Positions 2,181 through 34,739 of a DNA stretch of 64,000 nucleotides are shown in pieces. The notes beneath the pieces were generated by a model. It did not search any database. It worked only from the letters and a program-made list of their open reading frames with translations, and had not been told where the DNA came from. The first letter of the stretch is position 1. The number at the start of each line of letters is the position of its first letter. Source of the stretch: Stichopus chloronotus (lineage: Eukaryota > Echinodermata > Holothuroidea > Aspidochirotida > Stichopodidae); the NCBI GenBank assembly GCA_021234535.1, contig CM037843.1, positions 39,681,200-39,745,199 on the forward strand, written 5' to 3'. Position numbers and translations under genes: made by a program.

Positions 2181-5100
2181 ATGCGTTTCGCCTGCTTGGT
2201 ACCAACGCAAGTCCCCTCATTATGCTGTATGCTAATGCCTATAAAAGGTGAGTTCACAAGGTAAATTACATGTAACACATGTTGATGTGATTTGATAAGC
2301 ATGAAAGACTATAATCATAAATTATCTTTGTTTGATAGTTGCTCAGTCAAAGTTAACTCTGACTTGGTCTGATTTTGCAACTTTTTGCAACTTGTGTACA
2401 TAAATTCATGCGTAGCTTGCAAGGTGATCCACTTTCAAACCTGATCACTGGTCCCTAATTTGGACATACATTAAAGTATTCTGATCTTTAGAAGACCATT
2501 TTACGGCACAATCGGTTGACTTATTACATCAAATAGAATTCTACCCCTTGCTCATTGGAAATTTGAGTCTTTTATATCTTTATTGGAAACTTACTTTTAG
2601 CATTTTAAAGTTACCTTTAAAAAGTACATTCGGCTTCGTGTAACTTTTTTTGGTACGCGTGTTGGTATTTTTGTGTCATTTAATGTATACATTTTCATAA
2701 TCAACTTAATTTTTAACTTAATCTTTTGTCTCTCATTATCAGTTTGAAAGTCACATCCAGGAGTGCCTTTGACGCGTTGTTTCAAAAGTATTACCGTTAT
2801 CAAGATATACAGGACATATATGAGGAACTACTCGAGTTGGAGGTAACAATCTTTGATGTGAAGATGGCACTTTGATAATAAAGATGTTAGATATTATGAT
2901 AACGAAACCTACATACAGTAATGTGAACATTTCCATTGCATCACTACGTGAAACTTGGAAATGATGTACACATTTACATTTAAATTAATTTGACGTGAGG
3001 ATCGTAAAATCACATTCCATTGATTGGGGGATATGTTACTGACAAAACTATGTTGAATGTAGTAATAACGTTTAAAACATTGTATGCATTAGGCATTTTA
3101 TATTTTGTTCATTCTCACAAATCGCAAAATAGGGGAAAATAGAGAGTTATGCAAGGTTTGTCATGTACCTAGGTTACAAGAGCAGGAGCCTTAAACATAT
3201 TGGTATGTATAACCTAAGGAAAGAAGACATATCAGACAGCCATGTCTGTAGGCAAACGATAGGCTGGATATGATATTCAAACGAATGTGACCGCCAGAAA
3301 CCAAATCATAAAATTTGCAAAAAAATGAAAAAGACAGTTTAGTACGCCACAGATGCAGGTGTCGGAAAAGGTAACACAGAAACGTATGGATAGTTCTCAA
3401 GACATCAATTGCGTGTAATTCCAGTGCAGTGTGATCTAGAATTTACCATGCTAATTTTCTTATTTTAATTCATTAACAGGCAGAATGGAACGAATCTTTG
3501 CTACTCTGCGAACAGAGACTCGGTGGAACTTCTCCAGCTAACAATGTAGCAAAGGTTGGCGATAGAGGTCCACTTGACATTACCCTCGTCAATGGACGTA
3601 CAGAAAAGTAATCAAACAGATACTTTCTTTTGAGATGTCTTATTACAACTGTAACTTGCTCAAAGGGTTGCTTTTCAACGGTAATGCCGATTAACGTTTG
3701 TGGGAATCCAGAACATTGTTTTACCTTTGATATTAAAATACAAATCATGGGTTGAACAGAGAGCTAAATATTCGTCTTTCAGCCGATCACACCTTCCATT
3801 AGATATCAACCATATGTACCATTCACCCATCATGACTGAAAATCCAACTAAAGCTATCATGTAGCAATTGTCTTATTTCAAGAGAACATTGACCACAAAT
3901 GTGCTATTGCCACTATGTGTCTCGATTTTTGTTTCACATAACTCATGGTGGAATCAAAATCCGTTGAAACCTTCTTCAAATAATCAAACGATGTCAAGGT
4001 CCTTAAATGCGGAATACCAAACAAAGCGATCAATGGGAACACCAGGATTGCCCTGATTCCTTCTAGCTCATTCTTACCATAGGAAGGAATAACTAATCAG
4101 ATATTTAAATATTCATTGGTACAACCGATTCAGTGCCAGGGAGGCATTAGATCTTTCACAAGTTGTAATAAAATTCTGAACACAAAAACGTATTGAAAAA
4201 CACTAAAAGCACTCCCAGATTGGTAGTAATCACTAAATTAGTAATTCTACATTGTCAAAGTTTGAGTGACTTTGTCAAATAAGTTGACGTCAACAAGGTG
4301 AAACAATTAATATTAATAATGATAGCAATAATTGGTAATAAACTGCAGATATTCTCACAACCAGTTGCGGTGTTGACCAAAGTGAATGTATATATAGGAA
4401 GTTGATGCAGGAGCTAACATTGAAATGTGAATTGTAATTGAATTGCTTTCCTTTTTAGCTAGGTTTGTGCACATCTTGAAGAAAGGTGTTTTAAACGGTG
4501 AACTCTGTGCCGTAAATCCTATAAATGAAGGCCGTTCCTTCAGTGGTTTTTTTCAAACATATATGAAAAATGTTTAAAAATGTTTAATTTATTGCAATAT
4601 TAATAAAAGGTAGGTTCAGAGCAACCTGAGGAATAATTTTTCAGATTGACATGATAAGCTGTATAAAGGTGTGTTTTCCTGTCCCCCAAACAATGTGGTC
4701 TATGGCTAACTGCACTTCTTTCAGAAACGTCATGGAAACCAAAATTTGTCTTCCAGAGAAACAACTCTTTCTACGTACCTTGATGGAAGAAGTAGCCTGG
4801 TGCTGGTACTTCTCCGACATTTTGTTTGACAACCGTGACGCAATCACGTCGCTGCTCTTCAAGAGCAGGTGGATGTGATTAAAAGTCTCGGAGCTGAGGT
4901 GGTACTGGTATCTTTTGGTTCCGCTGTTGGAGTCAGACGGTGGATTGATGAAACTGGTTGTAAATTTGATGTACTATGTGATGAAAAACGAGAGGTGAGA
5001 TGATCGTAATGTCATGAAGATAAATGTGGGAAGGGTAGGCCTATGTGTATCTGTGTTATGACAGTTACATCTACATAATATTCTACCCTATTTTACCACA

Positions 5101-8100
5101 ATCTTAGACATCCTTGAATTGCATTACGGTATCGATGTACCGTTTCATAAACCTGATGAGATTAAATCGATTAGTTTAAATGGAACTAATTTTGGAAATA
5201 ATGTGTTGGGGTTTTGCAATCGTACTATGATATTCCATCCTATAGTTGATGTGTAAAGAGGACACTGTAAAGTTTGTCACACTAAAAGTGTACAAACGTG
5301 CAAACGTATATAAATTTCTTGGGTTTGAAGAGTACTCTACCTAGGTTGAATTGCACAAGATAGAGAGAGATAGAGTGAGAAAGATATTTAGTAATTCTTG
5401 TTTGAAAGTGCCTACCTGTAAAGTGTACATACCCTTGCACTCAATATTCTACATAGCTATATGATAAACAAACAAACATGCTTGCTTAGGTAAACCGTTA
5501 TTTTTTCACATTAACTTTTCAATGTTTTTATTACTTTTTGGTTTGATTATGCCTACTACTTTTTCTTGAGCCTGTAGCAAAATATACATTTACGAGACTG
5601 TCTTCTGTTAGTACTAAACTCATGTAGACATTGATTTAAAAGAATTAAAAAATTACTTGTTATTTGTCAGCCTGGGAAAAACATGTTCATTAATTAAGGT
5701 CTTTAATTGATGTGCATTTGATCATGTGTCTGCATGATATCAATTTCTGAAAAAAAAAAAATCCAGGGAAAGCAGTTGCATCAAATACCTTCCTTCTTTT
5801 AAGTGATTAAGTTTGTAGTTGTTGGTTGGATCATTTGTTAGCCCGCATTTAATATTCGATCTTTTCAAAAAGTCACGTTGATGTTGAGAGGTAAAAAACG
5901 CAGTACCGTAACTGTCAATTTCTTCCAGATTTACTCATACGTCGGAGTACTGACGCCAACTTCCAAAATGTGGCATCTCGATACCATACAAACCTTTTCA
6001 CAAATGAAGGTTAAGTTCAACAGACCAGATCCAAAGCAATTTGAAAATGTTTCAGACGATCTGATACAGGTAATTTTAACGTATTCGATTAGTACCTCTT
6101 ACACGAATATAATATTAACTTGAATGACCGTGATTAAATCAACACTGAAAGGCTATAATCATCCGTAGATGAAGACGTGTCCTTATTTTGGAAATTGATG
6201 TTTGGTAAATCATCCTCAAATTGTTAACAATTTCCAACGATTGCTTCTGACGGAGATCAACAGTGGTTTAGAGAAATCAATTGGTAAAATGTAAGCAAGA
6301 ATCAAACACTTTTTCAACTAAACACAGTGTGCGAGTTTGGAAGAGAGTCAGATTCAAGAGCTACAATATTAAACGTAAACTTCTAAATGGAGATGGAGTT
6401 AATAATAGAGTTTACAGGGAGAAGCTATACATTAATAAATCCGTCTGAAAACTAAATCACATAATCTTAAGGGTGGTAAATTTTATTGACCAACTTGGAT
6501 ATTTGTATTATATGAGTAAAGATCATCAACTAATGACTTCATTTTGTTAGTTTAGTAGTGAAAAGTTCAAGTCGAAGTCGAAATTCATCGAAAAAATATG
6601 AGTCAGTCTTGAAGATAATTATCTCATCCTTGTACGTAATACACAGGGAGCAGATATTGTGCTCAGATGAGCGGGTGAATTCCCCCCAAAATGACACTTA
6701 AATGGTAGACCACCGTACACCCCTTGTGGTACTCACTTAAAACTTGGTGAGTCATTACTGCTTATACAGGGGTACCTCATGGTATACAAATGACATGGAT
6801 CGAAATTACCTACTTGGGTTAGGTGGTGAGAAGGGCTGTTCAGAAGTGCCTATGAGTGATTGTGTGTGAGTGCTAAAACGTGTCACGACCCCCCCCCCCC
6901 CCGACGATAAGTCGGAGTGACCGTCAACCTTGGTGGGTAATTGCCCTGGTACAAAGTGTAGTATCCGCCCCATCAATATTATTAGGGATCAAAGGTCAAG
7001 AATCACAAGTCACAAAAACACATTTTATCCTAGAATTATAAAACTACAATAGGCCTATGGAAAGAAGGCAATACAATGATAGTTTAAAGAAATATTGATG
7101 ACATCACGAGGTTCAGGTCACGAGGTCAACGGTCAAATCTATAAAATGCTCTGAAAAAGTATGTCACGATCTCTTCCTAGACGGTAAGTCAGGTGAACTT
7201 GGGTTTGTGGTATATTAAAGTAAAGTTTTCAATACAAAAATATAAAGAAGATTCTTGAAATATTGATGACGCTACGAGGTCAAATGTCAAGTCGGCAAAA
7301 TACTACGAAAAAGTGTGTCAGTGTGTCAGGTTGGTAGCTGCCTGGGTATGTTTATAGTGTTCGCCTGACCAATGACGTAATAGACCAAATGTCAATGGTC
7401 ATGAAACAGAAAAACACATTTTTATCATTATTTCTATGTGTGAATGTCTTAGAGTTATGAAACTTCTATATACCTAAAATAGTCGATATAAGATTGTTTT
7501 TGACGAATGACGTCACGAGGTTACAGGTCAAATAGACAAAAACGCTCCGAAAAAGTGTTTCACAATCTACTCCTAGACGGTAAGTCGGATTAACTTCAAA
7601 CTTGGTAAGTAGATGGACGAGTATGAAATGTAGTGTTCGCCGGATCGGTGACGTCGTATAGGTCAAGGCAAAAAAAAAAAGGGGGGAGGGGAAAAGAAAA
7701 ATAGGTAAGTTGTCATTATTGGTGGCTCTGAAGGTTCACTTTTACTATTCGTTGCGGCTGTTCGTTACCTTTTTTTCGAGCAGAGCGAGTCGCTACCTTT
7801 AATTGCAAAACAAAAAACTCATGTTTTGGAGAGGGAAACCTCTTGAGTATTCATTTCAGAGTAAGTTTTCAGTCAAAAGAAAAGAGAGCTGTGTTGGAAA
7901 GGTAGATGAATTCTGTCTCAAGAAAAGCAGACGCCTCGGACAGAGACTTACGTCTCCAAGCAAGGAGCTGCGACTCAAAGAGCAGTTCCCTTGCAGGAGT
8001 AAACCAAATGATTCTGTTATCGTCCACATCACTGCTTGCAGTAAATGGTGTAGTGCCAGGTGCAAATTTAATATACGGGGAGGGAAACGTAAATGAAACT

Positions 8101-9542
8101 TAGAGTCAACTTTCTTTCTTGCCATTTTCTCATGTTCTCTTATGTTAAAGTGCTATAATACGCTCTTTCTTACTGAAATAATATCCAACTAAATGATGTG
8201 TACTTGTATGATTTTACTATGATTATTTACAAAGAAAGCAAATTCCTTCCATAACCTTATGGTAACCAATCAAAAACGAAAATGGAAGATAAGTGACTCT
8301 GTCGTTGAGATCATAATTTCTGGCCTTTAATGGAAAATATTATGTTTTCTTTAAGAAAAGTCCGATTTTGAAAATCAATGCTTACGGATACGGAATAATA
8401 TAGAATGAGCAGAGGGTTGCCTCCCTTGCAAGAACTAAGTTTCTCACGAAAAGAAATTCAGTTATTTGTTGCTCAAGAGTAATTTGTTCTCCCCTCCCCC
8501 CTTAACTCGCTCAAAAACCCGAATTATGCACTTTTTGTTTCTGATCGTATCTGTAATGTTTTGAAAAGATGAAGCTATTGGTGTTGTGTACTGGTGAGAC
8601 TGAATGTTTAATCGTTCAATCTCACCAGTTACATTTCTGTGGATGCCACGTTAGTGAATTTTCAACGGCCAATATTTTCGATTAACGCAAAAGTGAAACT
8701 CGGTTTTAAACTAGTACGAACTTCTGGATTCTTGCAGTTTTCTAGCCAGCAATGAAATCCTTGTTCTCCCACCAAGGTTCCTTTCACTTTTGGCAAGGGA
8801 TCAATAAGTATTTTAGTGAGACAGATGAACACAAATTGCACAACCTGAAACGTTTATTACGTTGGAATATCCATCATATTTTCTTTAACCTATAGATGGG
8901 AGGAGATTTCATTCTAGACAAGGATGGTAATTTCGTTTTTATCTACCGTAATAAAGCACCAAATGATAGACCAACCGTTGATCAAATCATCGTGAGGTTG
9001 AAGGTGAGACAAAGTAGAAACAAACTCTAATTTAGAGGCGCATATTTTCTAAAAGCAAAAGAGTGAAATTTACTCATGTAAGAATGTCTACATGAACCAC
9101 TCGTAGCAAGAGTGAATTTCACCCCGAATGGAGTGAAAATTTACTCTAAATAAAGCGATATGTTATACACATGGAGTGAAATATCGCTCTTTATGGGGTA
9201 AATTTTCACTCCATTCCCGGTAAATTCACTCTTTTGAGTTAGAGAGTATAACGTTGATGTAAAGGACTCAGGTATGGTAATAATCCACGTAAGTATAACA
9301 CTAACTAAGGATGTTGGGTAGCAGTAAAGTCGTTCTGTCAATTTTCTCTCTTTTGCAAGCATAACTGTATAAATCTGGCTTATTGGACTTTTTGAAATGA
9401 CAATGAGGTTTCTGCCTTACTACTCACGTGACTACTGTAAATAAATCCAAGATGAATAATATTACATTTGATACAAACGTCTAGGATTAACCCCAAATTC
9501 AATTTTTAACTATTTTGCTCTTTGCAGACATTACCTCACTAA
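2181..9542 (+). CDS. SELENOL: Selenoprotein L-like, peroxiredoxin-like (PRXL2/AhpC-TSA_2) protein with UxxU motif, copy 1 (5' partial)
   Basis: Exons are 2181-2247, 2743-2842, 3480-3607, 4757-4994, 5929-6069, 8896-9003 and 9528-9542 (stop TAA 9540-9542). All junctions are GT-AG and the frame is continuous. The N-terminal part (AFRLLG..., then a helix-rich segment ending ELLELE) leads into the thioredoxin-fold domain: LVLVLLRHF, then TGA-Q-P-TGA, RNHVAALQEQ, VVLVSFG, RRWIDETGCKFDVL, then LDKDGNFVFIYR near the C-terminus. This order matches the PRXL2/AhpC-TSA_2 family, where the motif is normally CxxC. Two in-frame TGAs sit exactly at the two Cys positions, so selenocysteine is inferred at both (UQPU), as in the diselenide selenoprotein L family. 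The likely role is thiol/peroxide redox chemistry; the substrate is unknown. Two SECIS-like elements follow the stop. The first exon (phase 1) was not found. All other exons match the tandem copy in length except the last. An ordinary gene finder would truncate or split this gene at the TGAs. Confidence 0.9.
4827..4838 (+). other. SELENOL: Double UGA (Sec) recoding site, U-Q-P-U, gene 1
   Basis: In exon 5, read in the frame set by both neighbouring splice junctions, codons TGA CAA CCG TGA follow CGA CAT TTT GTT (RHFV). The frame stays open and clearly homologous afterwards (CGC AAT CAC GTC = RNHV). The two TGAs fall on the catalytic CxxC positions of the PRXL2 fold. The paralogue has TGAs at the same two codons. 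Confidence 0.92.
6660..7700 (-). repeat. Dispersed repeat (inverted copy) inside intron 6 of SelL gene 1
   Basis: Reverse-orientation copies of the phrases found at 1130-1800 and 30180-31290: 'agacggtaagtcgga', 'aacttggt(a/g)(a/g)gt', 'tgtagt(a/g)ttcgcc' and 'gacgtcacgaggt'. At least three diverged units are recognisable, with a 14-nt C run at 6889-6902 and an A-rich/G-rich end near 7670-7690. It explains much of the large size of this intron (6070-8895). Confidence 0.65.
9107..9236. repeat. Foldback (inverted repeat) element in intron 7 of SelL gene 1
   Basis: The left arm from about 9107 reads agagtgaatttcaccccgaa then tggagtgaaaattta. It is matched in reverse complement by the right arm (about 9181-9236: atatcgctctttatgggg then taaattttcactccattc). 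The arms are roughly 50 bases around a loop of 25 or so. A further partial copy (gagtgaaatttactc) lies just upstream at 9061. It looks like a small non-coding foldback/MITE-type insertion and does not overlap the exons at 8896-9003 or 9528-9542. Confidence 0.75.
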
Positions 9543-10065
9543 GCAGACACATTCGAGGAGTCCGAGGTATTCATTCATCACCAATTAATGTCCAACCTCA
9601 ATAACCATTAATTACATCAATTTACTCTTCATAATCGGTATTTTCGTTAGTTAATTCCAATTATGAATAAGATTTCTGGTGTCACGTTTGTGTTTGTCTT
9701 TTTTTAAATGATTGTTTTTACGTTAAAGGTTATAAAATTAAATCAGTCACGTGTTCCTTTACGTGATCGAATACTTCTGTCGTCGTTTTTGTCCTTACTT
9801 TCAAGTTCGCTGCAAATTCTATATTTACGAACACGCATTCACTATCCAATAACGAAGAAGGAACATTGTGGACTTCACAAATGATTTACAACAAAATACA
9901 CACCAAATTGCAAGTCATTGTCTCTGTGATAAGGCCCAAAGGGTCAAAGGCTCATTTATTTTCCACCGTAGTAGTAACATAAAATTTCGCAGAGCTCTGG
10001 CAATTACTAGCATTTATTTTCTTGCATGCACATATTTCTAATTCGAAAGAGAAAAAAAAGTGTTA

Positions 10066-10170
10066 TTATTAAATATGTTCCTATGATGATGTCATGATGC
10101 CTAGATTTTAAAGTATGATATCAGATCTAGGTGGAAGTTAGTCTCATTTTAATAGGTACATATTTAGTAA
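10066..10170 (+). promoter_or_regulatory. SECIS element A, 3' region of SelL gene 1
   Basis: Basal helix: 10069-10084 (ttaaatatgttcctat) pairs with 10152-10167 (ataggtacatatttag), nearly complete. SECIS core: ATGA at 10094-10097 opposite GGAA at 10133-10136, giving the tandem G.A quartet. Helix II is GCCTAGATTT with AGATCTAGGT, 10 pairs including G-U. AAA at 10110-10112 forms the apical motif, with a short GTA/TAT mini-stem after it (form II type). It lies about 520 nt after the stop codon, in the expected 3' UTR position for recoding the two UGAs upstream. Confidence 0.85.
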
Positions 10171-10248
10171 GTGAACCTCTGTTATTTTATTTTTAGTGTG
10201 TACGAATATTTGGCATAATTGTTCTAGGTGGGTTGAAAATTGAACTTA

Positions 10249-10363
10249 ATTTATCAAACATGGTTCTACGAAGATGTTATGAAGCCTAGATCTTAAAGCG
10301 TGACATACCCGCAGATCTAAGTGGAAGTTAATTCTATCTTTCTAGGGACATGTTTGATAAATG
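10249..10363 (+). promoter_or_regulatory. SECIS element B, 3' region of SelL gene 1
   Basis: A second hairpin of the same design about 80 nt after element A. Basal arms 10249-10268 (atttatcaaacatggttcta) and 10342-10362 (ctagggacatgtttgataaa) pair almost perfectly. Core ATGA is at 10279-10282, AAA at 10295-10297 and GGAA at 10323-10326. Helix II is GCCTAGATCT with AGATCTAAGT, with one C.A mismatch. A GCG/CGC mini-stem follows the AAA. A GATAAA at 10356-10361 could serve as a variant poly(A) signal. A clear AATAAA was not found soon after it. Confidence 0.82.
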
Positions 10364-12159
10364 AGTAATTTCTCCCCAATATACCGATGTAGCACATGCG
10401 CAGAGTAGCACATGTAGGAGTCAATAATCGTGTAATCTTTTAAGAGGAAAAACAAAGGGTATATAACAAGGTCATGGTAAGAGCTGAACAAGAGATATGT
10501 CAGGTGTAATGACGAGGATTTGAAAACCAAGGTACATGTAATTCAGGAATATTCATGGCATTCAATTATATTTCTTTATAATATGGGGTCCACTGTGTTG
10601 CATTTCACTATCGAATGTATAGTTTTTCTTTTGTAACAAAACAGGCCTAATAAGGTTATATATGTGTGGCCGACTATCAGAGGTTTGGCCATCAGTTGTC
10701 CCAACAATGATATTTCGAACTGTATCCGCTTGTCCATCATTCGATTGACTACTTCTATATAGTTGAAAATCAATAACTGCGACTATATTGTTCAAAGTGG
10801 TTAATTTGTTCTGTCATTTCCATTAATGAAAAGAAAATTATGAAGGAATGTTTGTATCTATTTTTCTCTCCACCTCTCCTCTACGAAATGTGATCTGTAA
10901 TCTACATATGAACTTAAATGGTTGATAATGTGCTCGCAAATGCAAATTGATACTGCAATTTGCAGTTCGGTATCATAAGCATAGATTACTACTGTGTTAG
11001 TGGTCACTTAAGGTCACAAGACTTTTGTTTTTGCAAATTTATTGTAAAAGAAGACTATTTATTGGTTGGCATAATGGAAAATTGTGATAGTCTCTTGGAA
11101 AAGTACACAATGACCAAGTTTTTACCTTTTGTGACCTTTGACCTCAGGCGACGTTTGGTTACTTTTCTGTGCTCTGGATACGGTTTTAATAGATGAGCGA
11201 AAAACTCACTAAGATGACACTTGTGTACTCCTTTCATCTGAAGTTATCTGAAATGGTATAAAAGTACTAAAAATGCTTCAATTTAACACTGAAAATACTG
11301 TTGACAGGATATATCAATGTAGGGTAAATCGAAAATTTGCCATCATAAGACGAGCAAATGCGTTACAGTGTGAGGGCGCATGTTGTGTCTTTTTGGTCTT
11401 GTTTTATATAGTACTCGCGGTTATGTTTGAAGATAAACTGGAGTTGTGACGTTCATACTATTACACACTCATTGAATGCTTTTTTGATTGGGCACTCTCC
11501 TTACTCAAATTTTATCTAGAGAGATCCAAATTCCAAGGTATCTTAATCTAACCATAACACTTTTGTTTTGCGGCAATTATACCTTTGAACTTTTTTTTTG
11601 TTAGTGCAATTGTCGATGATAACATAACTAAACGGAGTTTGAATTGTACTGATAACTGTTATAAATGGCAGTAACCACGCTGAGAAAAAAAATTCTGACA
11701 TGTATGCAGTATTAATTTGCATCTTTTTGAAAAAAAATGCTTAACTGAGACTCAAAACTCCAACTTACTAGCATTTCGGATTTTTAATTTCGTCGCTCTG
11801 ACAATTGTTTTTCGGGATGGGTATGAGACCTCCACATACGCACGCACATACAAACATACACCTATAACAAACCGGTCAAGTTGGTCCCGGATATGAATAA
11901 TCAGGTTTAAATAGTCAAGTCTAAAGCATATCTCTATAAATTATTCAAGCATCATGTAACAGCTGCCATCCACTGGATGCATGATTGGTTACAAGTTTTT
12001 TTGTTTTTTTGATTACTTGAAGTAGCCCCATAAATCTTGCATGTTCACCTTGTAGTAAAAGTCAGGTTCCAGCTATTGTAAGTTGCATTTTAATTATTCT
12101 GTATTTGAGGTGTCATGTGTAAAGAATGCATGCACTAATAAGAAATGAGGGCATGGTTT

Positions 12160-12235
12160 CTTTATCATTATTATTATTTTCAGCATATATTTAGCCCTTA
12201 TCTTTAGAAAAACTCTAAGCGCTTTACACAGTCCA
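12160..12235 (+). repeat. Interspersed repeat fragment with 'aagcgctttaca' end
   Basis: An ATT-rich lead (cattattattattttcagca) is followed by 'tatttagcccttatctttag' and 'aactctaagcgctttacaca'. The 'AAGCGCTTTACA' ending is common in interspersed repeats of invertebrate genomes; that is recollection, not a search. No flanking duplication was established. Confidence 0.45.
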
Positions 12236-13593
12236 CAAAACTATATAGTAAAGTTGATAATTAAAAGGTCATAAAGAAAAGAAAAAAAGTGGCAAGAGAG
12301 AGTAGTGCACAAGCAAAGCTAAGACATAGCAAAGAATAACACTTACAAACTACTTAAAGTTAATACGATAAAAGAAAGAAAGTAAATGTCACAGAAACTA
12401 ATAAAAGCAAATATGAACAAAGAACAAAGATAAAGCTAAGGAAGAAAAGGCGAGAAAATTGATATCTAAAATACAAATATGATAAAATAAGGGAAAATTC
12501 AATAAAATAGTAATTATGGGAACGTATCCTACAAAGATGTGTTTAAGAGGGCGTTTAAAAGAGTGAAAAGAGCGGCAAGTATATTGACACGTAAGTTGCT
12601 CCAGATGTGCGATGAGACATTGGAATATCATCTATCGCCACATTTGTTGTGGGACTTCGGAAATGAGAGTAAATTGGCTGAGTTGTAACCGACTCAGTAA
12701 AATAAGACTAAAAGTTTAAAAGCACAACGTTTGTCAATTGGAAGCCACTTTAGGGGGTGCGGGAGCATGTAATGAAGTGTAAATGAGCCTACTTGTACTT
12801 CATTTAGTACAATTTGTAGCCTTTTGAGCAAGAATTCCAGTACTATTTGCATAATCAATGTGTGAACTGATAAACACATGAACAAATATCTTAGTCGCTA
12901 CAAAAGTTGAAAAGTGACGAATAATGTGAAATATTACGAAGATAATACGTACATGACTTGGCTTCATCATTGACGAAAAGTGGCTACCACGATCCTTTAC
13001 ATAGTCAGATTCTATTGTACTCTGTATTTAAAGCCTCGTGGTAGAGACAATTACACTTCAGGTATAGGTACGCAATGAAAGTGTTTATGTAAATAAGAAT
13101 GATGACGAAATGGCTTATCGAGCCAATGGGCATATCGCACGTGTTAGTCTACGGGGTAGGATCTTCGTAATTGTTATCTTGTTTGCCACAATAGACTGCT
13201 CACAACAGGCTACAGGTGTACTGGTTCGTTTTCACTTGGTCTTGAAAGTAGTGTTTGATTGGTAGGTGATAAGTCAATCATACCAGCACGTAATAGTGGT
13301 ATGTGAGTTAGGTTATACTATAGGGTCCATTTCACAGATAACATGATGACAGTTTTGCCTTGACTTTATGTCTTAAATCGTTTTGTTTGTTTACGTTCAT
13401 CAGAGCTTATCTTGATTAGTGTGCACCCGTGTTTTCAGGAGCGTCTGTCAATAAAGTCGAACAATTAATATACTTATTTAATATAGTTAATCACTTACCA
13501 GTGATGTACCTAATCGTTTGCAAACAAGTTAACCACTCAATTCATTAAAATGCTAACACCAAATGCCTTGTCATGATGGTGACTGCTCTTTCT

Positions 13594-14008
13594 TCCGACA
13601 CCCCTATGTTCCGACACACGTCTATTCGGACAGCAACGGCTTAGTAAGACCCCTTGGGTCAAATGGACCAGGAGGGGTATTTGGCCCCAAAGCCAATGGT
13701 ATCGCAATCTTTTATGCATGAACTGTCTCGGAACAAAAGCCGGCACACACATTTACAAATTAAGAAATTGAGTGTGGTACTACCTGTGATATTTTTTCAT
13801 GCTGTTAATACTGGATTCTTATTAACAATGTGTTGAAACTTTAAGTAAGTCCTGCATAATATGATCAATGCATATTAATTATACGCCGTGCCGAGCATCA
13901 TAGGCGGGCCCCCCAAATGCTGTCTGATGTAATGGGTGTGTAGTAACATATGAGTGTATATGAGTGAACATAAGGGTGTCGGACCGTAGGGGTGTCGGAA
14001 CGTAGGGG
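13594..14008. repeat. Inverted-repeat pair bounding a ~415-bp block
   Basis: 'ttccgacacccctatgttcc' at about 13594 is the reverse complement, with few changes, of the segment at 13975-14008. That segment itself contains a direct repeat: 'ggtgtcggaccgtagggg' followed by 'tgtcggaacgtagggg'. This suggests a terminal-inverted-repeat element or two oppositely placed copies of a short tandem repeat. Confidence 0.5.
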
Positions 14009-14389
14009 TTTAACCGTTATGATCAGCTTTTTTCCCAGGCTAAACCTTCGTTTCACCTACTTTTCCTTTAAAGGGGTAAATGCGGTCAGCCCAAATTGAA
14101 TTAGTATACTTCCTAATTATGCTAATTCATGACTGGCTCTTTTTCATTATATGATATAATTAACTTCTTGTCGAAGTTATTAAGTTTGCAGCATAACACC
14201 TTGCTTTTTCAGTACTGATATTCAGCAACATGATAAAAAAAACTAATAAAAGAAATGACTAGAGAATTTGCAAGGTTTTAATGATTTTTCAAAGTAAAGG
14301 AGGGACTTCCTTTAAAGAGCCACTACCATAAATATCAATTTAGAGGTTAAGGTCCAACATGACTAAGCACATAATTTATGTCAGGGAAG

Positions 14390-14400
14390 TATATAAAATA
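14390..14400 (+). promoter_or_regulatory. TATA box of SelL gene 2
   Basis: TATATAAAATA stands 32-42 bases before the ATG at 14432. With normal TATA spacing, transcription would begin near 14420, leaving a very short 5' UTR. The ATG context (agctATGGc) has G at +4. A longer 5' UTR starting from an upstream promoter cannot be excluded. Confidence 0.5.
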
Positions 14401-14431
14401 CCATATCGTTCAAAATTGAGCAGCATCAGCT

Positions 14432-17400
14432 ATGGCAGAAAGCGAGGAAGGTTCGACTGTTGTTAGCTCGAGAACTCAGCTCTGTGAAGCAATTAATACC
14501 ATTAAAGCAGGTTTAAAACCTAGAACGAAGAGGAATCTAGAAGACAGTGAGACAGGTAAGTGGGCGATAAGAGGAATTGTTGAATACTTTTATCTTCACG
14601 GGTATGTCAGAAGCACTATACATGACGATAATTTTTATTAAAACCTTTTTCGATTGGTGAATCGTTGAATACATTGAATATCGGTAAAAAGAATATTTAA
14701 GAGTTAGTCAATGTTGGACGGTGCATCAAACTATAGGATCATGGTTGTTTGGGGATTAATGCTATTGTCAGATGCCCTCGGTCTGCCGGCCCTCGTGCAT
14801 CGCTTGCATTAACTTCCTATCGTGCATGATCCTCCATTGAATGCATAAGTTTAGCATTGTTTGACCCTGTTCATTCACACGCAATGAGATTTTTATATAA
14901 GAAAGACGAAAATGAAAGAAAGTTTTGGTTTGTAAATAACCTCATTTTTATTGAAATGAAGAAGATACACTGCGAAAAGGTAACATGATGAACAACCTGA
15001 CAACAATTACCTTGCGGTTATCCAATGATACCCCACGGTATGATTGCAATGGGCCAATAGCAGTTGAGGATTCTCATTAAGTATGAATGAATATAACCTA
15101 ATGATATGTGGTAACAAAATTATTGCATAACTTCATGTAACAACCCTACGTGAAATGATAATCGTAGGGATGAGGAACCTTTGTCTGACAATGTTGTATT
15201 CGACAGTTGATAGAGACAATAGGTTTTCATAGAGCATTTACTTACATTGGACCCATGGATATCGTTTAATATCATTTTGTACCTACACAGGTACTTGACA
15301 CATGTAGGTCTAAGATCTAAACTTGTGAAGAAACTCATCCTACAACGTACATCTTCAGTAATACCGAAAGTGTTCTTCATTGGTTTGTATAAGGACGGCT
15401 TAGATCAATATAACATGGGACGGGACTGGAACCTCTTCAACTGTAGGATGTTAAATTGTGCTCTACGTAGCGGACGGATAATCTACGCCAAAAAATAAAT
15501 AAATAATTGCAATATTACACATGGAGTAGCATGCAATATATTACTAATGTGGATTTGCTATATGTTCGCCAATGATACTGTAACACAAGGAACATACATG
15601 CCCTTATTTTCAGCAGAATATCAGTGCAAATGATACCCAGTTATACATAAGGAGCCTTTTATTTTCAGCACCTTTGGAAAATATGTTTCACTATCTAGTC
15701 TTCAAGTGTGCGTCCGGGGCATGTACCTTTTAATCGTATTTTCGTTGGTGATGGCGCCAAAATGCAATCGTTCATAATCACAATAACAGAAAATAATGGT
15801 CAGTTTTGTACATTTTACGTGGGAAATGATATTCCTACACTTAACAGTGCCATAAATATGTTCCCAGGAGTAGGTTCATGTATGTATGACCACTGTGTTA
15901 TCACAATGAACGACTGGAGAATTTAACAAATTTAACTTAATAACGGTCTCGTTTCTTTCATTCCCCATCCACTCCACCAACCCTCTTCAAATAAAAAATA
16001 ATGAAAAATTCAACTAGACGAAGTCTTTAAAATCTTGAAACAGTGTTGTTCTTAGTGATTACCCGACTGCTGTTTTGTTCGTCACAATTTGGAAGCATAA
16101 AAAGACTGGTGAATACATTTACATTGCAGATGCTTTCCGATTACTAGGGGCCACTGGAGGCCCTCTGGTCTTGCTGTATGCCACAGTCTATAAAAGGTGA
16201 GATTAACTTATCACCAAGTACCCTACATTGTCATTTGAAAGGACAACAGTTAAGGTATAGGGAAACTTATCAGCTTATCAATGACCCGGCACTGAGAAAC
16301 CCTGAAACCAATTTTCAGTATGGACTATTTTAATCTGGAGTGCATTAAAATCTATAAAGCGCAATCTTCGTCAATCGTATCTCTCTATAAGGTTATAAAC
16401 AGTGGCCTATAGTCTGTATTTTTAGTGTGTTTGAAAACACAATAGAGTTAAGTTGATAGAGAGCGTAGTGCAGTGCACACCTCTTTTGTAAACTCAACCT
16501 GTGAACCATACACCAGGATTTCATAAACGTCCTATTTGACAGGAATGTTCCCATACATTTACCACAGGAGCCTATTCTGCCAACATGATTACCGTATTTA
16601 GTTTAAACGTTCTAGTCGCATGGTCAGTCATAAGACTGTTAGGGCCAACGGACATGCAGTGAGGGTTAGGAGCACGGACGCACTTTACAAGTGTGACGTG
16701 CCAATAACTTCCATCTTTCATCAATTGTCAGTTTGTTAGGGTGTCGTTTGCATTGATTTCTCTTTTAAACTTAAGGGGAAGCCTGTCTTCTACCCTTTAA
16801 AAATGGCTCCTTAAATTTGTCAAGCTCTGTTATATTGTTTAATCAGCTGTACGAATTGTTTATTCATGCATAGTATAAGTGAGAATTAATTGAATCTAGC
16901 TACTTCCATCTTCATATTCCAGTTTGAACGTAAAAAACAGGACTGCATTCGATGAATTGCTTAAACAATATCTTCACCATCAAGACGTGCAAGACACCTA
17001 CAAGGAGTTGCAAGAATTGGAGGTAACTTTTGGCATAAGGCTGTGTAATGTACACTCAACGCTCTTAGCAACAAGGGTTCTTCGTTCATTCCGTTGGAAG
17101 AACCCTGGAAGTTCTTCCAGAATAATTTACAAGAATTGCTTGCAAAATAAAAGCCCTGTTGGAAGCCTACGATTATGTTTTGTCCCCCAGGGAGAGAGAA
17201 CCCTGTTCGTCAAGAACCATTTTCCTTAGAGTGAAACGACGTGCAACATATTGCACATTTGTAATGCTAGAATGTACAATTGTTGGCATGCTGGGCCATT
17301 ACTGGCACTTATAAATCATGTAAATCATGTGCTATGGACAAATGCACCAAACTTTCAACTTTGTTGAGACCTTTCGCATTCATCATTGGTACTCATCATT

Positions 17401-20400
17401 TAAACAATACAAAATCACAACGGCCATCGTTGAATACGTTTTTCTACAGGTGGAATGGAGCAGATCAGTTCTAGAATGTGAAAAGAGGCTCGGTGCGAGT
17501 TCTTCAGGTGACGATGTAGCAGAAGTTGGAGCAAGAGGTCCACTTGACATAACCCTCGTCAACAGTCGGACAGAAAAGTAACCATCAACAAACTCATTTA
17601 TTTATGTATATCAAAAGGCAACTTGACGAGTACTCACTGCATTTACTGGTGACACTTACAGAATTCCTACTTTGAGATAATATGACCATATATGTACTTT
17701 TCATGCCCATTGTGGATCATGTTCGTATTATCATTATCACTATTTGATTTTAATTTTAGTTTTTTTATCATCAAGCATTCATTGTTGATTTCTGGTAAAT
17801 GAAACTAAAAATGCCGATAGAAATGTATGGTAGATAAACTCTCGATGTTACCGTACTTGTTTTCAGAGAAGCGACTCTTTCGTCTTACTTGGACGGAACC
17901 AATGGCCTCCTACTTATCCTCCTTCGGCATTCTAAATGACCCTTCTGACACAACCACATCGCTGCTCTTCAAAAGCAGAAAGATGTGATGAAGGACCTCG
18001 GGACCGAGGTCGTAGTGGTGTCTTACAATTTAGCTAGTAAAGTCAGGAAGTGGATAGATGAAACTGGCTGTAGATTCGACGTTCTCAGCGATGAAAAACG
18101 ACAGGTGAAATGACAAGTATTTTTCGATTATCTCAAATTACAGGTCATGTACATGCATAATGGCATTGTGTATAATGTGCATTACTTTACTCCCCTCTGT
18201 AACAATTACGTTGGTTGTGCTTGCGCATGTTTAGAGCTTTGTGTGAAAGCGCTTTGCGTGAAAGCGCTTTGAGTGAAAGCGCTTCACACTTTTCATGTGA
18301 TCCCTATCTGTCAGATCTTGATAACACTCCATCAAAAATATAAATGCAAAGAAACAAAAGCAAAACGTAAAACAGATCCAGCAGCTACCTCATTTTCAAA
18401 GGTAGGTTTTGTTTATTGCGACATGACAGCATGTTAATTTTATTTTACAGTTTGCTTCCTTAAATACATATACTTTCCCAATCATGCGTGAGTCCTTGTG
18501 CATTATAATGAAAGTGTTTATGAAATATATGTGTGTGTGGGTTTATGTATGCATTTGTGGCACTTTATTGCTCGAGAATGAAATATTAGATGGATCTCGT
18601 TTTTGGTAGGTGTTACAGTGACTGCAAAAAGACTACTTCGTTGAGTGAAGGTCAAGATAATTCCCTGTCTACAGATTTCGAAGTTGAACAATTTTACAAT
18701 CCGCTACTGGAGAATATGTAGATGTTGATATTGGAAAAGTTATAACACATAACAATCCGTATTTATTCAGATCTACCGCTATGTTGGACTGTTAAAAGCA
18801 GCGTCCAAAATGTGGCATATGGACAACATTCAACGCTTTGCAGAAAGGGCACTTAATGTCTACAAAGAACTACCAAAAGATCTTGAAAATGTCCCGGAAG
18901 ATCTTCAACAGGTAATATCATGTTAATGATGTCATGATATGATGTGAAGCTTGGACAGAATGTAATATTTATCAGTTATCAGAGTGAGCCAACAGACAAA
19001 TCTCTTTCAATTAGAAACTTGCTAGCATTTTATGGTCTCGGTAGACAACGTAATTGTGATAGATCGTTTTTATCCATATGTGGTAAAAATAATTGCTGTT
19101 GGCTGTGATCAAGGGCTACTTGGCAGACGTTTGGCAGAAGTGTGAAGATAGGCCTATTTAGTACACTGTCTCCGAGTACATAGGCTACTAATCAAGCAGA
19201 ATCTTAAAATCAAGAAACGTATAATTTCTGCATGGCAGAGTGTCATGTCTCTATAGTAAGTTTCCTTCAATTCATACACAAAAGAGATAAAAAGTACTCT
19301 AGAACACTAACAAATTGAAAAGTGATATTTGCCGGTTTTCTTTACTGAAATTCGACTGTGGTCAAACATAGAAACTGGTACAAATCTGATGGTGGAGAAA
19401 CATTATGTAGGTTGGGCCTTAAACGAAACATATGGCAGTTGTACAAAACTTCCTGCAATACCAAATCTTGGGAATAATGTGAATTTCGGTGAAGGTTCGG
19501 TTTTACTGTCAGTGAAAAAAACGTTTGGCAGACTACTGTACCATGCAGTCACATTTCATTATGCACCCATGAGCTTTCCACTCAGTGACTATAAGATTAG
19601 CAGGAGCTAATTTAATTTTCGAAACAAAATCATTTTTTCTTTCTCCAAACGGATTATCAAGTCCCCTCCTTTCGAATACTTCGTATTTCATAGCATGGAG
19701 GAGACGTCATTCTAGACAAACATGGTAACTTTGCCCTCGTCCACCTGAGTACTACACCGAATGATCGAGCAAGCGTCGACCAAATCATCACCACTTTGAA
19801 GGTGAGCCAAAGAATCTCAAGTCATAATTCCAATAATTAAACATCATATGTTATTTACAGTTTGTAATGACGTATAATATCCACATAATTCTTTTATAAC
19901 CTTCACCAATGATCTTCTTACTTCACCCTAACATTGTTCATATCATCAAAATGCTGGATGTGAGGTCTTCTTATCTTGCGGATGTAACTCTTGTGTTAAT
20001 TGATAAAGGTCCCCACTGAAACCTTTTCCAAGTTGAATGTAATCTTGACCTTGTCAGTTACAAACCGTTACTTGCATATAACGTGGTGAACTGTCTCAAC
20101 TTTAATAAAGAAACATCTAGAAGGAATGTAAGTGACTTAATTGTTCAAAATCAACCTTAAGCTGCTCAACAGTGTAACGGTAATGACCTTACATAATAGA
20201 GTCGTCACAGTATTTAACAATAATGATAAGGCATAAAAATCTATGTGAAAAAAAAATCGTTTTTTTTTTCTCGAAGATCCCATGGAAACTTCACATTGTT
20301 AAATGAATGTCAGGTGACATTTAAGTTCATCGATCATCTGCATATTGTAATATTCATGTACATTTGCAAAGCACAGTGTTTATCACATGATAGTTCTGTG

Positions 20401-20624
20401 CATCAAGTAACTGCTAGAAGTTCTCAAATAAAGGGTGCTTAATATGAATGTCACCGACAGACTTTTCTGGCACGTTGTTTGCAACTTGGAAATGTAAACG
20501 AGATTCAATTACTATCACTATTGTTTGTAACTTAATTCTTCAAGTATTATCTATCAAATCTTAACATCACTTTCTTTTCTCCCTCTTCTCATTCTCTCTA
20601 CAGACGCTTCCAAGTTCCCAGTAG
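14432..20624 (+). CDS. SELENOL: Selenoprotein L-like, peroxiredoxin-like (PRXL2/AhpC-TSA_2) protein with UxxU motif, copy 2 (complete)
   Basis: Exons are 14432-14555, 16130-16196, 16923-17022, 17450-17577, 17867-18104, 18771-18911, 19694-19801 and 20604-20624 (stop TAG). They total 927 nt, or 308 residues plus stop, all with GT-AG junctions. Residues 1-41 are a polar N-terminus (MAESEEGSTVV...). About 42-140 is a helix-rich region without a recognised domain. From about 143 comes the thioredoxin-fold domain: LLLILLRHSK, Sec164-P-F-Sec167, HNHIAALQKQ, VVVVSYN, RKWIDETGCRFDVL and LDKHGNFALVH. No signal peptide or membrane segment is evident, so it is probably soluble. Exons 2-7 have exactly the lengths seen in copy 1, which marks a tandem duplication. 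The family role is redox (diselenide) chemistry; substrate and partners are not deducible. Two SECIS-like hairpins lie downstream, then AATAAA at 21468-21473. Active-site neighbours differ from copy 1 (KUPFUH against VUQPUR), so the two may have diverged in specificity. Confidence 0.93.
15247..15498 (+). other. Unexplained open frame in intron 1 of SelL gene 2
   Basis: An 83-codon open frame with protein-like composition (...LVKKLILQRTSSVIPKVFFIG..., ending SGRIIYAKK). It has an AG acceptor-like site (cctacacag) at 15290. No ATG start fits well and no family was recognised. It could be an unannotated exon, a relic or chance. Confidence 0.2.
15708..15926 (+). other. Second unexplained open frame in intron 1 of SelL gene 2
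   Basis: About 72 codons (from a GTG, no ATG at the edge) reading VPFNRIFVGDGAKMQSF... and ending CVITMNDWRI-stop. The composition looks protein-like, with several Cys and aromatic residues. A stop lies just upstream at 15696, inside an acceptor-like 'tctag'. The family is not recognised. Confidence 0.22.
17937..17948 (+). other. SELENOL: Double UGA (Sec) recoding site, U-P-F-U, gene 2
   Basis: Codons TGA CCC TTC TGA follow CGG CAT TCT AAA (RHSK) and precede CAC AAC CAC ATC (HNHI), encoding residues 164-167. Both TGAs align with those of gene 1 and with the CxxC positions of the family, although the flanking residues have changed. Keeping both TGAs while neighbours diverge argues against chance stops. 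Confidence 0.93.
18241..18285 (+). repeat. Three 15-bp tandem repeats in intron 5 of SelL gene 2
   Basis: Units gtgtgaaagcgcttt, gcgtgaaagcgcttt and gagtgaaagcgcttc follow each other without gaps. AAGCGCTT inside each unit is a perfect palindrome. It starts 137 bases after the donor at 18105. No function is evident. Confidence 0.85.
19329..19610 (+). other. Unexplained open frame in intron 6 of SelL gene 2
   Basis: A 93-codon open frame (TTG at the edge, not ATG) with normal-looking protein composition: MVEKHYVGWALNETYGSC..., ending FPLSDYKISRS-stop 83 bases before exon 7. No domain was recognised, and there is no counterpart frame in gene 1. Possible retained or alternative terminal exon, nested gene or relic. 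Confidence 0.25.
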
Positions 20625-21086: not shown

Positions 21087-21196
21087 AATTATTAAACATG
21101 TTTCTATAAGTACGTTATGATGCCTAGATTCTAAAGCGTGAAAGCACGCATTTCTAGGTGGAAGTTAGTCTCTTATTGGTACATGTTTAGTATATT
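21087..21196 (+). promoter_or_regulatory. SECIS element C, 3' region of SelL gene 2
   Basis: Basal arms from about 21088 (attattaaacatgtttctat) pair with 21174-21194 (ttggtacatgtttagtat). Core ATGA is at 21117-21120, AAA at 21133-21135 and GGAA at 21160-21163. Helix II starts GCCTAGA with TCTAGGT and has U.U mismatches above. After the AAA, GCGTG-AAAG-CACGC forms a perfect 5-bp apical mini-stem, the form II hallmark. It lies about 460 nt after the stop. It resembles element A most: both share 'TCTAGGTGGAAGTTAGTCTC'. Confidence 0.87.
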
Positions 21197-21294: not shown

Positions 21295-21410
21295 CATTTA
21301 TTAAACACGTTCCTACGAATAAGTTATGATACTTGAATCTTAAAGCGTGACTTGACGCGGATGCAGGTTGAATCCAATCCTATCCTTCTAGGTGCATGCT
21401 TAATAAATAA
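21295..21410 (+). promoter_or_regulatory. SECIS element D, 3' region of SelL gene 2
   Basis: Basal arms 21296-21315 (atttattaaacacgttccta) and 21389-21408 (taggtgcatgcttaataaat). Core ATGA is at 21326-21329, AAA at 21342-21344 and TGAA at 21369-21372. Helix II is ACTTGAATCT with GGATGCAGGT, almost fully paired with G-U pairs and one A.G mismatch. The mini-stem is GCGT/ACGC. It resembles element B most (shared ATCTTAAAGCGTGAC). Several compensating differences from the other three keep the pairing, which is evidence of selection on structure. Confidence 0.85.
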
Positions 21411-21467: not shown

Positions 21468-21473
21468 AATAAA
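21468..21473 (+). terminator. Poly(A) signal of SelL gene 2
   Basis: AATAAA about 60 nt after SECIS D. Using it would place both SECIS C and D in one 3' UTR of roughly 860 nt. An earlier AATAAA at 21402-21407 overlaps the end of element D and would also keep both. Confidence 0.55.
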
Positions 21474-30179: not shown

Positions 30180-31290
30180 TGATTGCATAGGTTGACTTAC
30201 CGTGTCACATTCATGGATAGGGAATATGTAAAAGTTATGTTGACACCATGTACTACCACCACCTAACACTGTATTTTCCGTTACAGTAATCACGACCTTT
30301 GCCCTTGACCTGTGACGTCATCAGTAGGGTGGACCCTACATCTCATACATCTACATCCTTCATTTACCCACCGACGAAATTTGTTTAAGTTAATCCGACT
30401 TGTCGTCTAGGAGGAGATCATGACATACTTTTTAGAGCATTTTTGCCGATTTAACGTTTAATCACTTGACTTTTTACCCGGTGACGTCATCAATATTTAA
30501 AAAAACATTCTCCTATTGTCTACATTTTTATTTATGGCGGTTTTATCACTCTAAGATATTAACCCATTGATATAATGTTAAAAATCCGTTTTTCGTTTTC
30601 ATGACCTGCGACCTTTGACCTATGATGTAATTGAGTAGGGCGGACACTAAAAGACATACCCGAACACCTACCCACAAAGTTTGAAGTTTATCTGACTTAC
30701 CATCTGGGAGGACATACTTGTTAGAGCATTTTTATCAATTCGACCTTTAATCACATGAGCTTTGACCTGGTGACGTCATCAACATTTTTAAAATTCTCGT
30801 AATACTTGCTTTCTCTATATGGTAATTTTACAACTCTAGAATATTCACACACTGAGATAATGCTAAAATGTGTTTTTCGTTGTCATGACATTTTACCTTT
30901 GACGTCATCGTTCAGGCGGACACTATACCACATACTCAGGCACCTACCCACCAAGTTTGAGGTTCTTCCGACTTACCGTCTTGGAGGAGATAGTGAAACA
31001 AGTTCGGTTCTACACACACACACACACACACGCACACACACACACACACATAAGACAGTCAATCTTGAGAGGACCGGAGGAATCTATTGAATTTTCTACA
31101 GAGGACCTAAAATATATTGTTTCGGTCCTCGATCCCACCCGAAAACAAGGGCATACACACACAAACACACATATGGACACACCTTCTCATCCCCTAACCC
31201 CATTGGGTAATTCCAATCCATGTCATTTGTATTCCATGAGGTACCCCCACATAAGGACTACTGACCCACCAGGTTTCGCTTGAATACTAC
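30180..31290 (+). repeat. Diverged tandem units of the dispersed repeat family
   Basis: The landmark '(a)gggcggac(a/c)c' recurs near 30326, 30635 and 30914, so units are about 280-310 bases. Each unit continues with 'cacctacccac(c/a)aa', 'gtttgaagtttatctgactt', 'gaggagat(c/a)', 'tttttagagca' and 'ttgacctggtgacgtcatca'. It is the longest copy in this window. A (CA)n tract interrupts it at 31012-31050. Confidence 0.75.
31012..31050 (+). repeat. (CA)n microsatellite
   Basis: An almost pure CA/AC dinucleotide run with one CG interruption, inside the dispersed repeat. Confidence 0.95.
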
Positions 31291-32980: not shown

Positions 32981-34738
32981 TCAAAACTGTAAGATATTAT
33001 TGAAAGATGAAGAAACTGATGTCTCATTGATTAATGTTTCTGTCCTCTTTTCACATCGACTAGCATATTCGCTTTGAAGATGTCCGTATTTCTTTGAATT
33101 AACCATCGCAAATCTTTCACATCTTTGCTTTCGTTTCTGAGACGATGACTTACAGTTAATGGCATTCCTCATTCCAAGATGAAACTCCTTGTTTCTCCTG
33201 GCGTAGATAATCGGATTGACCATTGAATTTGCTAAAGCGAAATATTCGCAAATCGTTTGCACCACGAACAAGGTGACGTCGTCGTAGGTAGAATAAACCT
33301 CGTAGAGGAACTGGAAACTCGTCGGCAACCAACATATACCGAATGCGCCAACGACGATTGCCATGGTTACCAAACCTCTGCTTCGCGCCTTCGCGTCTCT
33401 CTTGCTGTTGTCGCTGATAGATTTTGCAGTGGCCAGCTGATAGTGATTGTGTCTGCGTTGCATCACACGATGAAGTAAAATAACATACATACAGAGAATC
33501 CCAACGAAGTATACTGGAAAGAAAATCCCTGTACCCACTAACACCGCAGCTACGTCATTATCCCCTATGTGGTCGCCATCACAAACCCATTGGTCATTTT
33601 TGTCAGCTGGTATAAAGATTAGCGAAAATCCAAACGATACACTGCCAAGCCATATGACGAAGAGTGAAATTTTTGCTCGTAAAGGAGTAACAATGGTCAA
33701 ATAACGGAGTGGGCAGTAGACTGAAACTACTCTGAAGAAAAAGAAAATAAAGGGATGTAAGAGACATGTTTTATTGCCAATACAAAACTGTATTACCCTT
33801 CTCAGACACATTCGATGATACATTCCCTTTAAACATATTAAATTTTGTAAGACTACATGTCAGAGTGGTAATGGAGTCGCCTTGGTCTATACCCCCAAAA
33901 CAGGTTAAATGAACTGTTGTAGTGTTTACAAATCTACTTCCATGTAATCACAATGTAGTACAATAACTGAAACACGAACATGGTTCCTTAAAGTTCTCCC
34001 AAATGATTGGTACTCATGCGCAACCCAATGTGAAAACTGTCCAGACAAGGACTGCATCATTTAATGATAAAGAAAATTAGTATACATGACATCTATATAG
34101 TTGTAAAGGTAGCCCGCTGACCTTTAATTTAATTTATAGGCCTAGTCATTACCAGAATGTCTCGATACTTGAAGATTTAATACAGTGATGTATCACTTCC
34201 TTCGACCTACGCACTGAACATTCTATATTTGACCAACCTGGTACAAATAGCATAATTCACGGGGAATAATACTTCCAGTAATTTTAAATTCGTTGTTTTA
34301 TAAACAAGACAGACCTAACTCCAAACATGGCGAGACTTGGCATAATTTTTCTCACCTGTCGATAGTGATAGCACTGACGTGACAAATCGAAGAAACACCG
34401 AAGACAAATGCAGGTAAAAAGAAGTTAAACCTAGAGATTTCGTAACAAGTTGCAGGACTTTTCATCAACCGTGCAGCCAAGATCAACGGTAAGGCAAAGA
34501 GACCGGTGAAAAGGTCTGTCACCGCGAGGCTAAGCAAGAAATAATTTGACACTTTCCTCAGTCTAGCGTTTCTTGCGAAGGCTAATATGACTAACAGGTT
34601 TCCCATCAAAATTCCGACGAAAATGGGCATATAAATGAGCAGGTAAACCAAGGTGACGATTGGGCTAAACGCCAGATTGACCGACGAATGTCCAGTTTGA
34701 TTATGACGATCAGTCTCAGAAGAATTAAAAGGAAGCAT
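32981..34738 (-). CDS. Class A (rhodopsin-family) GPCR, adenosine-receptor-like
   Basis: Two exons on the - strand: 34738-34356 and 33731-32981. The GT-AG intron of 624 bp splits the Arg codon of the DRY-type motif in phase 2. The product is 377 residues with two N-glycosylation sequons near the N-terminus (N5, N13). TM1 has GNLLVILAF; TM2 has LSLAVTDLF. C98 before TM3 can pair with the Cys of WVCDGD in ECL2. TM3 ends I-D-R-V in place of DRY. ICL2 PLRYLTIVTPLRAK and the single intron at this point recall adenosine receptors. TM6 has CWLP; TM7 has NSMVNPIIYA with a basic helix 8. The C-tail is Ser/Lys-rich. It is a plasma membrane receptor, ligand unknown; an adenosine or aminergic-like orphan is plausible. 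No other gene is close. A - strand AATAAA near 32028 is the nearest clear poly(A) signal seen. Confidence 0.88.
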
Positions 34739-34739
34739 A

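Follow-up and report, generated by a model that had tools for sequence, protein, structure and literature searches.

Tandem selenoprotein L genes with probable paired SECIS elements in Stichopus chloronotus

Two adjoining genes of Stichopus chloronotus, here called A and B, are very probably selenoprotein L (SelL) genes that carry a pair of SECIS elements each in their 3' UTRs. They lie in a stretch of 64,000 nt (contig C15:39681200-39745199, hereafter the window, meaning the whole stretch that was analysed) of a genome of 719 Mb in 267 contigs. The SelL family is already known; what is new is an array of three copies together with a fourth gene of the UxxU type, and the doubling of the SECIS element in A and B.

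Gene models and genomic context

Gene B is whole in the window and gene A is there in part, its start being 2.9 kb ahead of it. The original prediction described two neighbouring genes of the same exon structure, and the gene models bear this out. A and B match in the length of each exon from 2 to 7 (67, 100, 128, 238, 141, and 108 nt) and in the 124 coding nucleotides of exon 1. Throughout gene B, and from exon 2 to exon 8 in gene A, the borders are GT/AG with identical phases. Two in-frame TGAs, three codons apart, are found as predicted at 4827 and 4836 in A and at 17937 and 17946 in B. The features of the two genes are listed below, with the evidence for each in brackets.

C15:39678284-39678407, about 2.9 kb upstream of the window: SelL gene A, exon 1 (homology)
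2181..2247, + strand: SelL gene A, exon 2 (splice borders, homology)
2743..2842, + strand: gene A, exon 3 (splice borders, frame)
3480..3607, + strand: gene A, exon 4 (splice borders, frame)
4757..4994, + strand: gene A, exon 5, 238 nt, contains UxxU (splice borders, frame)
4827..4838, + strand: gene A, UxxU motif TGA CAA CCG TGA, UQPU (frame, alignment)
5929..6069, + strand: gene A, exon 6 (splice borders, frame)
8896..9003, + strand: gene A, exon 7 (splice borders, frame)
9528..9542, + strand: gene A, exon 8 coding part, stop TAA (splice borders, frame)
14432..14555, + strand: SelL gene B, exon 1 coding part (splice borders, frame)
16130..16196, + strand: gene B, exon 2 (splice borders, frame)
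16923..17022, + strand: gene B, exon 3 (splice borders, frame)
17450..17577, + strand: gene B, exon 4 (splice borders, frame)
17867..18104, + strand: gene B, exon 5, 238 nt, contains UxxU (splice borders, frame)
17937..17948, + strand: gene B, UxxU motif TGA CCC TTC TGA, UPFU (frame, alignment)
18771..18911, + strand: gene B, exon 6 (splice borders, frame)
19694..19801, + strand: gene B, exon 7 (splice borders, frame)
20604..20624, + strand: gene B, exon 8 coding part, stop TAG (splice borders, frame)

With TGA read as U, the exons of A and of B join into frames that are open and homologous on both sides of the motif. The deduced proteins measure 306 aa (A) and 308 aa (B); they agree at 175 of 306 aligned residues (57%), and each U of one is aligned with a U of the other.

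The genes had been described as a tandem pair. They do adjoin, but the array comprises at least three copies rather than two. A search of the genome with DNA matched three places, and a search with proteins gave 23 matches that form five loci, all on contig C15 among the best candidates scored. Copy Z, 20-32 kb upstream of the window, has its coding exons at C15:39649301-39660738 and a SECIS element extending to 39661497. It is complete, with eight exons, a UDPU motif, and an intact frame of 307 codons including the stop (L018, L019, L020). A fourth UxxU SelL gene, Y, lies 8.7 Mb away on the minus strand (L022, L023; C15:48439499-48447463); its model, at about C15:48442536-48447463, is partial, with five exons and the motif ULPU. 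We also observed a SelL-related locus, X, on the minus strand near C15:4430000 (L025, L026), where the motif is UPVC, that is, one Sec-like TGA and a Cys. At L025 3111-3159, on the minus strand, lies a SECIS-like element with a pattern score of 18; Rfam does not report it as SECIS.

A 306 aa protein of a relative, P0001, encoded on a contig of 2330 bases, is 93% identical to Z. The protein tree places A and B together (94/92, not starred) and separates them from Z and P0001; X forms a long branch of unsure placement. None of the trees, of proteins or of SECIS elements, has a starred branch.

Three other features of the window were recorded. A rhodopsin-family receptor gene with at least two exons lies on the minus strand at 32984-33859 and 34355-34753 (PF00001, 76.3 and 54 bits). 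The last intron of gene A contains a long hairpin at 9131-9211 (GAGTGAAAATTTAC... arms), which matches mir-507 weakly (25.5 bits for a gathering score of 79) and looks like a small inverted-repeat element. The list of patterns includes similar stretches on opposite strands at 6790-6831 (+) and 31185-31226 (-) (ATGACATGGATYGRAATTACC...), probably a dispersed repeat.

Selection on the reading frame

Purifying selection continues past the TGAs, in line with the original prediction. The dN/dS values are 0.18-0.38 both upstream and downstream of them for the pairs A-B, A-Z, and B-Z (NG86 and YN00), and 0.17-0.38 in a separate run in which A was taken without exon 1 and a third method was added. The dS values among A, B, and Z are at least 0.84, hence the copies are old and their silent sites are near saturation. 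We simulated neutral evolution of the 141 codons that follow the second TGA of gene B, with 5000 runs per divergence. A stop-free frame survived in 10 runs at 1 substitution per site, in 41 at 0.5, and in 348 at 0.2. The exon that bears the TGAs has a length such that skipping it would shift the frame.

These results bear on the reading of the TGAs as ordinary stops, by which A and B would encode truncated N-terminal proteins or be pseudogenes. Standard annotation takes TGA as a stop, and a record of A. japonicus, P0006, is a "partial" protein whose first residue comes four after the motif. Yet selection acts on both sides of the TGAs, no in-frame TAA or TAG occurs in A, B, or Z, the same two TGAs are common to four genes, and SECIS elements are present, so that we consider this explanation very improbable. 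The further copies with the same TGAs carry no other stops, and the 306 aa frame of the relative crosses both TGA positions.

Assignment to selenoprotein L

The original prediction took UxxU as the signature of SelL, and the assignment stands on family profiles, likeness to a fish selenoprotein L, and the SECIS-like elements downstream of A and B. As predicted, the TGAs take the place of CxxC in a thioredoxin-fold domain of the AhpC/TSA type. The alignment places TGA-x-x-TGA at this position in four genes (A, B, Z, and Y), all of which score above the cut-offs of Pfam PF13911 (AhpC-TSA_2) and PF00578 (AhpC-TSA). For the NCBIfam family "SelL-related redox protein", with a cut-off of 120 bits, A without exon 1 scores 120.3 bits, B scores 109.3 bits and is thus under the cut-off, as is Z. 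A and B show sequence kinship to SelL, in particular to that of Mugil cephalus (P0005), which is displayed with C at both U positions.

In the fold model of P0001 helix 162-173 begins with the motif, and the best structure matches are BCP/PrxQ and prostamide/prostaglandin F synthase. The latter, PRXL2B (human, 9usa), is the second-best Foldseek match, with a TM-score of 0.81 by target length and 0.45 by query length. It shares the fold, but differs in having CxxC (C44 and C47, per the title of the entry) in place of UxxU, 163 residues versus 306, and low identity (21%).

The UGAs could in principle be read as another amino acid without any selenocysteine machinery. The records of P0001 and P0002 do give W at both UxxU positions (WLPW in P0002), which is most likely the gene caller's code. 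Against such a reading, the motif aligns with the CxxC of relatives, including the record named selenoprotein L that is shown with C, and the genome has SECIS elements and a tRNA-Sec. We regard it as the least probable of the explanations considered. The tRNA-Sec scores 76.1 bits for an Rfam cut-off of 47, a threshold that was also passed in 5 of 14 control genomes, and its presence leads one to expect Sec insertion at both UGAs.

SECIS-like elements in the 3' UTRs

The 3' UTRs of A and B contain two tandem SECIS-like elements each, while one was found in Z. Y has one strong element, preceded at a distance of about 200 bases by a weak candidate. Neither the elements and their doubling nor the genes Z and Y figure in the original prediction.

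10066..10170, + strand: gene A SECIS 1, A1 (R1 107.1 bits; leave-out R2 70.8 bits, E 4.8e-15; Rfam SECIS_1 20.7 bits)
10251..10360, + strand: gene A SECIS 2, A2 (R1 113.1 bits, A2 being in R1's building set; Rfam SECIS_1 23.4 bits)
21089..21193, + strand: gene B SECIS 1, B1 (R1 102.4 bits; leave-out R2 71.8 bits, E 2.7e-15)
21298..21406, + strand: gene B SECIS 2, B2 (R1 106.6 bits, B2 being in R1's building set; Rfam SECIS_1 14.6 bits)
L020:189-298, outside the window: single SECIS of Z (own model)

The leave-out model R2, built without the upstream elements A1 and B1, still detects both. None of the elements in the window reaches the Rfam SECIS_1 gathering score of 35, and Rfam reports neither B1 nor the element of Z, even up to E 10. 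Chance alone yields a hit to the plain SECIS pattern with a score of at least 16-17 roughly every 35-50 kb, and A2, B1, B2, and Z accordingly do not rest on the pattern alone.

Outside the coding sequence, A and B share no position-matched conserved blocks other than the pairs A1/B1 and A2/B2. The conservation of these pairs (76% and 74%) has a P of at most 2e-8 under neutrality for the dS values tried, uncorrected for the prior choice of the blocks by BLAST. RNAalifold, run without guidance, recovers the same main helices in the four elements of the window, all of which have the core motifs ATGA, AA, and GA. In an alignment of five sequences, 87.5% of the cells are paired, versus 27-49% when it is slid, and five pairs have changed on both sides. 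The shuffling control for this covariation is only moderate: of the five observed values, four are reached in 17-31 of 500 shuffles and the fifth in 222 of 500. The folding z-scores are -4.5 for A1, -5.2 for A2, -3.5 for B1, and -1.8 for B2. The fold of B2 is equalled by 8 of 200 shuffles and, as a single sequence, is not SECIS-like (core pairing probability 0.00), with 2 of 11 pairs of the core helix being non-standard.

Both elements are likely carried by one mRNA in each gene, judging from the positions of poly(A) signals, which leave this reading unproven. No AATAAA separates the two elements of A or of B, and ATTAAA occurs at the start of A1, B1, and B2. The last bases of B2 overlap an AATAAA at 21402, which is followed by another at 21468, and a search of the 1.1 kb downstream of A2 found neither hexamer.

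We give even chances to the proposal that A and B each have two active elements and that the pair has been selected for more efficient or processive decoding of two Sec codons. Somewhat less probable, but still a serious contender, is that A and B are the same real SelL genes with one active element per pair, the other being a decaying or differently used duplicate; the two explanations differ on the second element alone. The poor folding of B2 on its own and the single element found in Z speak for such a duplicate, as do the argument of PMC3737529 for a single SECIS serving several UGAs close together and the report in PMC2874816 that the upstream SECIS of human Sep15 proved nonfunctional. 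It fits less well with conservation of both members of the pair above the neutral expectation and with the retention of the core motifs in all four elements.

In the tree of five elements A1 groups with B1 (90/91). When Y is added, A1 joins the long branch of Y (86/82) and no longer B1, so that, with no starred branches, the order of the duplications is unsure.

Discussion

We propose that A and B are paralogous SelL genes that arose in a local expansion, now a tandem array of three copies or more, and that both UGAs of each mRNA would be decoded as selenocysteine. Sequence and fold suggest that the product is a thioredoxin-fold, peroxiredoxin-like redox protein whose Sec-x-x-Sec active site starts the catalytic helix and may form a diselenide, as reported for SelL. 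The tandem lineage would have had a single SECIS, as Z still has, that was duplicated in the 3' UTR, presumably before A and B split, with both copies apparently retained since then in each gene. If both are active, their most likely role would be to raise the odds of decoding two UGAs nine bases apart versus termination.

Like the SelL of animals and marine bacteria, A and B have UxxU in an AhpC/TSA thioredoxin-fold domain and a SECIS in the 3' UTR, and they share sequence similarity with the Mugil cephalus protein and the NCBIfam SelL-related family. They differ in that one genome has four UxxU genes, three of them in tandem; a table in PMC3473315 gives one SelL for five of six invertebrates. 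They also differ in having two SECIS each, whereas PMC3316567 describes for vertebrate SelL a single SECIS that inserts both Sec. A single element for both codons is a reported habit of the family and not its defining trait, and A and B remain SelL, as a variant.

SelP likewise combines multiple Sec codons with two SECIS in a single 3' UTR (PMC2397514, PMC5133445), and PMC5133445 inferred different roles of its two elements in mice. A and B differ from it in that their Sec codons are side by side, whereas in SelP one lies far off towards the N terminus and the others cluster at the C terminus, and in that their SECIS elements are similar to one another. The Pfam hits of the two proteins, taken up to E 1, include no SelP domain, and instead of the SelP N-terminal domain and a Sec-rich C-terminal region the proteins have only two U, three codons apart. 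The Ciona intestinalis SelW1 described in PMC2874816 is, like A and B, a gene other than SelP with two predicted SECIS, but it has one Sec codon and belongs to a different protein family.

The paired elements of A and B contradict the printed claim that the two Sec of SelL use one SECIS (PMC3316567, on vertebrates). They also contradict the conclusion of PMC2397514, where a screen of ESTs for paired SECIS gave SelP and two other sequences, that mRNAs with two SECIS are unique to SelP, which the Ciona gene had already called into question. The purpose of a second SECIS has been studied mostly in SelP, whose many distant UGAs complicate matters. Here, one array offers the same motif of two UGAs in two paralogues with paired elements and in one with an apparently single element, which could be tested with small reporters, and the proposal in PMC3737529 that one SECIS can serve several UGAs in one region finds a natural test in A and B. 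If both elements are indeed active and selected, decoding with two SECIS would have originated outside SelP, and Z, with its single SECIS, would be the natural control.
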